Origin: Thermoproteota archaeon
GTDB taxonomy: Archaea; Thermoproteota; Thermoprotei_A; Sulfolobales; NBVN01
NCBI GenBank assembly: GCA_030550455.1
Contig: JAUQPH010000005.1
Coordinates: 1-64,000, forward strand
Direction of reading: 5' to 3'
DNA length: 64,000 bases
Part shown: positions 22,945 through 51,410 of the stretch, piece by piece
Layout: the number at the start of each line of letters is the position of its first letter
Numbering within the stretch: the first letter of the stretch is position 1
The notes under the pieces: generated by a model
What the model saw: only the letters and a program-made list of their open reading frames with translations
Told to the model about the DNA's origin: nothing
Databases searched by the model: none
Position numbers and translations under genes: made by a program

Positions 22945-23069
22945 GGCGGATCCCAACTTGAGGGGGCTGCGAGGCCTCGCGGACCTCACTGCCCCCTCAA
23001 CGCGGCCGGCTTAACTTCCGGGATCTGACGAGTCCGGGTGTTTCCCGACCGCTATGGTCGGGATCCGCC
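22945..23069 (-). rRNA. 5S ribosomal RNA
   Basis: Reverse complement GGCGGATCCCGACCATAGCGGTCGGGAAACACCCGGACTCGTCAGATCCCGGAAGTTAAGCCGGCCGCGTTGAGGGGGCAGTGAGGTCCGCGAGGCCTCGCAGCCCCCTCAAGTTGGGATCCGCC: canonical archaeal 5S with complementary ends. Confidence 0.97.
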
Positions 23070-33506: not shown

Positions 33507-33533
33507 TGGATTCCTTGTAAGACTATAGTGACT

Positions 33534-33832
33534 GTCCGCAGGTTGTTTAGTTTTCGGTTTTTCTAATTATTTGGGTTACCTCCGTGGGCTTCGGGAGTCG
33601 ACCTAGAAGTATATAGATGACTGAGTGTTTTAGTAGCTAGGAGTCGGTGAGCCGTTAGCGAGGGACGGGCTCTGTGAACAACTCTTCACCGATGGCTCTA
33701 GGAAACCCGGTGAACCCCGAGAGCCGTAGGCGGGGAGAAGGAGTAGCCATGTGGGGTGAACCTGTGCCCAGTAAATCCAAAACAACAGAAATAACTAAAA
33801 CAACCACGTTGATGGGTGCGGGCAACCACTCC
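33534..33832 (+). repeat. Structured two-copy element, copy 1 (candidate ncRNA or MITE-like)
   Basis: Aligns along its whole length with the reverse complement of 51001-51303; 31-nt identical core gtgagccgttagcgagggacgggctctgtga (33647-33677); ends ggttgttt.../...aaacaacc can pair. Confidence 0.8.
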
Positions 33833-51000: not shown

Positions 51001-51303
51001 GTGGTTGCCCGTGCCCATTAGCTAGGTTGTCGTAGTTGTTTTGTTTGTTTCGGTTTTCGGGCAAAGGTACACCCCACCTGTTCGTTCACGTCCTCCCCGC
51101 CTACGGCTCCGGGGGTTGCTGAGTCCCCAGAGCCGCCGGCGAAGAGTAGCTCACAGAGCCCGTCCCTCGCTAACGGCTCACTAGCTCATCGGCTCCTAAC
51201 TACCCAAACACCCGGTTTTCTGTACATATGTTTTATTAGTTCTGGGAATTCACAGAGATAACTCAAGTAACCAGAAAACCAAAAAGCAGACAACCTGTAG
51301 ACG
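51001..51303 (-). repeat. Structured two-copy element, copy 2
   Basis: Reverse complement aligns with 33534-33832; identical 31-nt core at 51151-51181; terminal ggttgtc/gacaacc pairing differs from copy 1 but is preserved. Confidence 0.8.
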
Positions 51304-51410
51304 GTTTACGTGAGAATAGTGAGAATATGTGAAAGAGTAGCTACACACCACGATGTAGTGTAAGCTTCGAGATGCTCGTGATGTTTTCTGAGGGCTGAAA
51401 CCGTAGCTAA

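Follow-up and report, generated by a model that had tools for sequence, protein, structure and literature searches.

The stretch of archaeal DNA analysed here (the window, 64,000 nucleotides) contains two copies of a short structured element, which we call family A (Table 1). From the ORF reading, copy 1 is flanked by genes for an ATP-dependent DNA ligase and for a protein that we take to be Nep1, and copy 2 lies upstream of a gene that presumably encodes ribosomal protein S3Ae. The window also holds a 5S rRNA gene (22948-23065, minus strand; Rfam RF00001, 74.1 bits). In agreement with a preliminary description of this DNA, which had claimed that no ORF spans the element, zero ORFs of at least 60 aa overlap copy 1 or copy 2.

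The two copies are about 74% identical over 224 nt (BLAST, E 5.6e-33), and their similarity is therefore far above chance. The multi-copy alignment places copy 1 where the preliminary description had put it, with each end shifted by 3-4 nt. The 31-nt identical core that it had claimed is present in both copies, and its account of the second hairpin, the GGCGGGGAG block and the ...GGGCAACCAC end is confirmed. Copy 1 also has the end pairing of GGTTGTTT with AAACAACC, which belongs to a longer, imperfect inverted repeat whose arms are the T/G-rich left end and an A/C-rich stretch near the right end.

Table 1. Positions of the family-A features in the window, and of related elements elsewhere in the same genome (G000).
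Feature	Position	Strand	Details
Family-A copy 1, complete	33530..33829	+	300 bp; limits from multi-copy alignment, flanks differing
Family-A copy 2, complete	51001..51305	-	305 bp; limits from multi-copy alignment, flanks differing
Left end GACTGTCCGCAGGTTGTTTAG of copy 1	33530..33550	+	multi-copy alignment
GGTTGTTT, left arm of subterminal inverted repeat	33541..33548	+	partner AAACAACC at 33798-33805; direct reading
TATA-like box GAAGTATATAGA, putative RNA promoter	33606..33617	+	weak score, consistent position
RNA core of copy 1, model R1	33635..33740	+	112.8 bits
RNA core of copy 2, model R1	51090..51193	-	105.1 bits
31-nt core, same in both window copies (copy 1)	33647..33677	+	direct reading
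31-nt core, same in both window copies (copy 2)	51151..51181	-	direct reading
Best-supported helix	33682..33737	+	CTCTTC (33682-33687) with GGGGAG (33732-33737); encloses GGCTCT/AGAGCC hairpin
3' terminal hairpin, k-turn-like	33751..33829	+	pairing retained through changes in other copies
Right end GGGTGCGGGCAACCAC of copy 1	33814..33829	+	same kind of end closes IS607 element G041:C40
Family-B copy	G000:C9:56778-57003 (L032:1-226)		plus about 9 other places
Intact IS607 element	G000:C3:27636-29577 (L171:1137-3078)		tnpA 215 aa, tnpB 438 aa

Dispersal and mobility of family A

The genome that carries the window, that of a heat-loving archaeon, comprises 1.65 Mb in 17 contigs and is judged 87.8% complete. 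The element had been described as two-copy; both copies are real, but this count is too low, since copy 1 gives 17 BLAST matches genome-wide. They represent fragments and about 11 copies that are either complete or shortened by internal deletion, and a covariance-model search adds two diverged copies; G000 has about 14 in all. Left ends of the copies follow the pattern GACTGTCCGCAGGTTGTTTAG and right ends the pattern GGGYRCGGGCAACCAC, while their flanks are unrelated. The left-end pattern is found at 10 genome sites at up to 3 mismatches; its reversal, used as a control, is found at 0. Internal deletions have shortened several copies, in the extreme case to a 74-nt remnant that consists of the two ends only. 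Two right-part fragments (L013:2158-2221 and L014:2223-2275) terminate in an inverted left end (AACAACCTGCGGACAGAC in L013), as if an inversion had occurred between the subterminal repeats.

Both window insertions are missing in six congeners (same genus), where the flanking genes are conserved. Empty sites, which the preliminary description had proposed to look for, are thus seen as element-free loci with their flanking genes; the exact junction could not be read in the six congeners because the intergenic sequence is too diverged, although the synteny is clear. Among 214 genomes of the order the family-A core model matches 15, three of them with 10, 9 and 4 matches, and it has no match elsewhere in the genus. 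Even sampling across the phylum gave matches in 7 of 398 genomes, and an exact-pattern scan for the family-A core found nothing in public genome contigs or viral contigs.

Being multi-copy, absent at both insertion sites from the congeners and patchy across the order, family A can be taken as a mobile, non-autonomous element. The sharp common ends set in differing flanks, the internal-deletion derivatives and the lineage-specific insertions are further signs of mobility, and the element is short, dispersed and ORF-less, as a MITE is. Target-site duplications, also proposed for inspection, were not seen in the aligned flanks of family-A copies or of those of a sister family, B, described below. 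Fully matched terminal inverted repeats were not found either: the termini differ (GACTGT versus GGGCAACCAC), and there is only the imperfect subterminal repeat. Family A is therefore not a MITE of the classical DDE type.

A covarying RNA fold with a k-turn-like 3' end

For the covariation analysis 32 homologues (E <= 0.002) were gathered and aligned by covariance model, a check that the preliminary description had suggested. In the resulting fold 88.5% of the cells are paired, and two-sided compensatory change occurs in 16 of the 21 pairs. Covariation was 0.295, compared with 0.157 ± 0.010 for shuffled alignments (0/500) and <= 0.105 when slid, a strength that is somewhat overstated, given the fitting of the alignment to the model and the relatedness of the sequences. 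From this alignment a separate RNAalifold run recovered 11 pairs, 9 of them with compensatory changes. In the best-supported helix, CTCTTC/GGGGAG, five of the six pairs show two-sided compensatory changes. When RNAalifold was applied to the first 10 copies, from G000 and the genome G022, covariation was nil (covariation term -0.07), since these copies are too little diverged; the larger set reversed this result. The core is kept in eight G000 and two G022 copies with a mean column identity of 80%. The core has a genuine fold of the RNA type.

The core is followed by a terminal hairpin that resembles a kink-turn. In copy 1 its 5' side reads GTGG (33751-33754), GGT, GA, A and CCTGTGCCC (33761-33769); on the partner side GGGTGCGGG (33814-33822), which pairs with CCTGTGCCC, is followed by CAA and CCAC (33826-33829). 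The general form is CCCGTGYCC/GGRCACGGG closed by GTGG/CCAC, with a GAT-GA bulge. The standard kink-turn is approached more nearly in a relative, L078 (CCGT-AAT-GA-ACCC...GGGT-GA-ACGG), and in the IS607 element of G000 (CCACC-CAT-GA-ACCC...GGGC-GA-GGTGG). Only 19 of 40 sequences passed a strict k-turn scan, in part owing to search windows that were too tight; the arms are visible directly. The base flanking the terminal CCAC is mostly T or C, and a T can lengthen the terminal stem.

Upstream of the core lies a TATA-like box, whose score is only modestly above that of shuffles. Its distance to the core is 37 nt in a group of family-A copies from G000 and the genome G159, and 29 nt in copy 1, owing to an 8-nt deletion.

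Relatives of the two families: TnpB genes and IS607 elements

The preliminary description had named a significant match to a known RNA family as a reason to abandon its proposal of a new RNA family or MITE-like element. For the window copies Rfam gave no match at gathering score, and neither copy had one even at E <= 1. A homologous RNA in locus L109 of a Sulfolobaceae-like genome, where it lies beside a TnpB gene, is matched by Rfam Sso133 at E 2.4e-17. More generally, diverged homologues of the family-A RNA sit divergently upstream of TnpB genes. Of 26 named TnpB loci, 13 have a core motif in this position, at 204-253 nt from the match start; it was found in none of three control positions. 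Since such homologues adjoin TnpB genes and one of them is Sso133, the family-A RNA is not an unrelated new family. Both halves of the earlier proposal are partly right, structured RNA and mobility being properties of one object.

The proteins linked to these RNAs form a TnpB clade without a zinc ribbon. One linked protein matched the NCBIfam models TIGR01766 (E 2.6e-7, just under the cut-off) and guided_TnpB (E 2.3e-6, under the cut-off), and another contains a Cas12f1-like TNB domain according to Pfam. An AlphaFold2 model of a linked protein (mean pLDDT 86.5) had its best PDB matches to Cas12f, and ISDra2 TnpB was also matched. D, E and D are conserved in the clade at positions that we take to be the RuvC triad. 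It occurs in 63 of the 214 genomes of the order and in named Desulfurococcales, Staphylothermus, Zestosphaera, Metallosphaera and Vulcanisaeta records. In G000 and G159, the two genomes with the most family-A matches, it gave no match (E <= 1e-15 in G000). Nine or more other TnpBs are encoded in G000, and these might conceivably use the family-A RNA.

Features of an omega-RNA were found in this set: a covarying scaffold, linkage to tnpB at a fixed place, and a scaffold that ends at the transposon right end, with the flank next. This work points to a zinc-less TnpB clade with a divergent RNA ending in a kink-turn. At the loci of this clade (L124-L160, L094-L117) a small AbrB- or RHH-like gene often precedes tnpB, and the divergent RNA, 200-250 nt upstream, ends in its kink-turn at the transposon end.

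Family B was found beside a TnpB gene; G000 has about 10 copies of it, and several more occur in G027, a genome of another family. Its termini (GACTGTGTC... and ...CACGGGCAACCAC) are of the same kind as those of family A (GACTGT... and ...GGGCAACCAC). Five copies have one internal deletion in common, and therefore the deleted form itself multiplied. In G000:C5 (L172) and G027:C4 (L173) the left end runs directly into pseudogenes of the IS607 serine recombinase, tnpA. Contig G041:C40 contains an element with an IS607 tnpA and a frameshifted tnpB; it ends on the right in GGGCACGGGCAACCAC, and the 3' end of its tnpB is homologous to family B. The right half of family B is thus a tnpB 3' end with its guide-RNA region, and the tnpB 3' end is the usual place of a guide-RNA scaffold (PMC8612924). 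Because its left end enters tnpA and the G041:C40 tnpB 3' end aligns with it, family B is an IS607-derived MITE whose structured part is a tnpB 3' end.

Other candidate sources were rejected. A Y1 transposase of the IS200/IS605 type as the mobiliser was ruled out by the absence of PF01797 from G000, a genome 87.8% complete. Nine zinc-ribbon TnpB elements of G000 were considered as parents; they have their own ends, and their 3' RNA differs. A family of tnpB-only elements with zinc-ribbon TnpB in G000 has the common ends CAACTGTTTCGG.../...GAGCTGAACCCC, and several of its members lie close to family-A or family-B copies (C9:58278, C5:259751, C1:4834, C11:199286, C9:42517 and others). In the intact IS607 element of G000 a near-perfect kink-turn hairpin lies within the tnpB 3' region.

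Origin of family A and alternative readings

Taken together, these results allow us to address the origin of family A. It is probably a MITE derived from a TnpB-carrying IS607-type transposon, having kept both ends and the guide-RNA scaffold and lost tnpA and tnpB. This explanation builds on observed multi-copy dispersal, lineage-specific insertion, conserved ends, the covarying fold, the linkage to TnpB and the derivation of family B from IS607. An autonomous transposon with the complete family-A RNA and A ends was not found, and for this reason the IS607 origin of family A rests on the termini that it has in common with B. Both terminal motifs are held in common by the two families, and the IS607 tnpA of G000 is intact; we infer that an IS607-type TnpA moves family A. 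The family-A core is closest to the RNAs of the zinc-less TnpB clade, which are read divergently, whereas B is an ordinary tnpB 3' end, and family A may be a hybrid. As the zinc-less clade is absent from G000 and G159, the copies in the window genome are most likely passengers.

In the mechanism that we propose, the serine recombinase TnpA, supplied in trans, would recombine the two ends into new sites. IS607 recombination takes place at matching dinucleotides (PMC10711439). For family A the insertion would occur at a matching dinucleotide, apparently AC, and would produce no target-site duplication. Most A and B copies have AC at both their left and their right limit, which fits IS607-type insertion without proving it, since fixed element sequence would look the same where no exact empty site can be read. 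Transcription and any guide role are likewise inferred: the TATA-like box would drive an RNA of about 190 nt that passes through the k-turn-like hairpin at the right end and runs on into flanking DNA. In TnpB systems this run-on into the flank is the guide, and that of the family-A RNA might serve in the same way.

The strongest competing explanation is a pure DNA MITE, in which the hairpins are structures recognised by the transposase at the ends of an IS607/IS605-type transposon and there is no functional RNA; the covariation would then be inherited from an ancestral guide-RNA function or reflect DNA hairpins. It agrees with the preferred explanation on the transposon half and differs only on the RNA. 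We regard it as a serious possibility, though somewhat short of probable. The TnpB clade that matches the family-A RNA is absent from the genome, covariation among the G000 and G022 copies alone is nil, and in many copies an internal deletion runs through the RNA core, which is therefore unnecessary for spread. On the other hand, the core has been kept in the eight G000 and two G022 copies at the identity given above, the spacing of the TATA-like box is constant in many of these, and the cross-genome covariation is strong.

A more far-reaching version of the guide-RNA idea, that family A consists of tnpB-less solo guide-RNA MITEs with their own promoter, is unlikely on present evidence. Each 3' flank would be a different guide for a TnpB acting in trans, cleavage of emptied sites would retain the MITEs, and the k-turn would recruit L7Ae into the TnpB ribonucleoprotein. 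Less likely still is a family of stand-alone regulatory RNA genes, dispersed by duplication and acting in trans on mRNAs or transposase genes. The RNAs are structured, intergenic and multi-copy, and Rfam lists one relative among the sRNAs (Sso133), but the sharp ends with differing flanks, the internal-deletion copies, the patchy occurrence, the ends common with IS607 elements and the TnpB-linked homologues all fit a transposon. A MITE of the classical DDE-transposase kind, having terminal inverted repeats and flanked by target-site duplications, to which the GGTTGTTT/AAACAACC repeat and the inverted left ends of L013 and L014 could be attributed, is highly improbable, given the unlike termini of complete copies, the aligned flanks lacking duplications and the ends common with IS607 elements.

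What is new here is the recognition of such an element, a MITE derived under the preferred reading from an IS607-type transposon, as the carrier of a TnpB-type guide-RNA scaffold with a kink-turn-like 3' end, as well as its relation to Sso133 and to IS607 ends. Among open-licence papers we found no report of a MITE with a TnpB-type guide-RNA scaffold; to our knowledge, the tnpB gene is normally included when TnpB guide RNAs are studied. Elements that retain scaffold and ends but neither gene would be parasites of the RNA-guided retention system and would provide a natural test of guides working in trans. Earlier, separate observations are thereby linked, namely the Sso133 sRNA, crenarchaeal MITEs and IS607 elements.

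Rfam RF02814 (Sso133, Sulfolobus sRNA133) is the counterpart of the second hairpin in the window copies, and the L109 RNA that it matches is in the same divergent position; the model spans only 73 nt of the RNA and does not match the window copies. In the known TnpB omega-RNA or right-end RNA systems, which include ISDra2 (PMC8612924), SisTnpB1 of S. islandicus (PMC10640517) and the IS607 elements ISFba1 (PMC11061315) and ISXfa1 (PMC10711439), a structured scaffold extends, as in family A, up to the transposon right end, and the flanking DNA is then the guide; in ISXfa1 the first flanking nucleotide is part of the scaffold (PMC10711439). Each of these elements has its own tnpB, and the RNA usually comes from the 3' end of that gene, whereas family A has no tnpB, a putative promoter of its own and a k-turn-like hairpin at its end. 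The G041:C40 element has a right end, GGGCACGGGCAACCAC, of the same kind as that of family A but differs in having tnpA and a frameshifted tnpB, and its RNA is of the B type, not the A type.

Two groups of archaeal MITEs can be compared by description. For Staphylothermus marinus 14 MITE copies of about 260 nt with inverted repeats are reported, which resemble the region upstream of four transposase ORFs (PMC2678158). Like family A these are crenarchaeal and of similar size and copy number, and the region that they resemble lies in the same upstream position as the RNA here; in the passage concerned they are presented as DNA repeats, without an RNA fold or a link to TnpB or guide RNA (PMC2678158). 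SMN1 of Sulfolobus islandicus (320 bp), which reportedly depends on the ISC1733 transposase (PMC3718332), is like family A in size class, archaeal host and non-autonomy, and its mobilisation in trans by a related transposase resembles the one proposed for family A.
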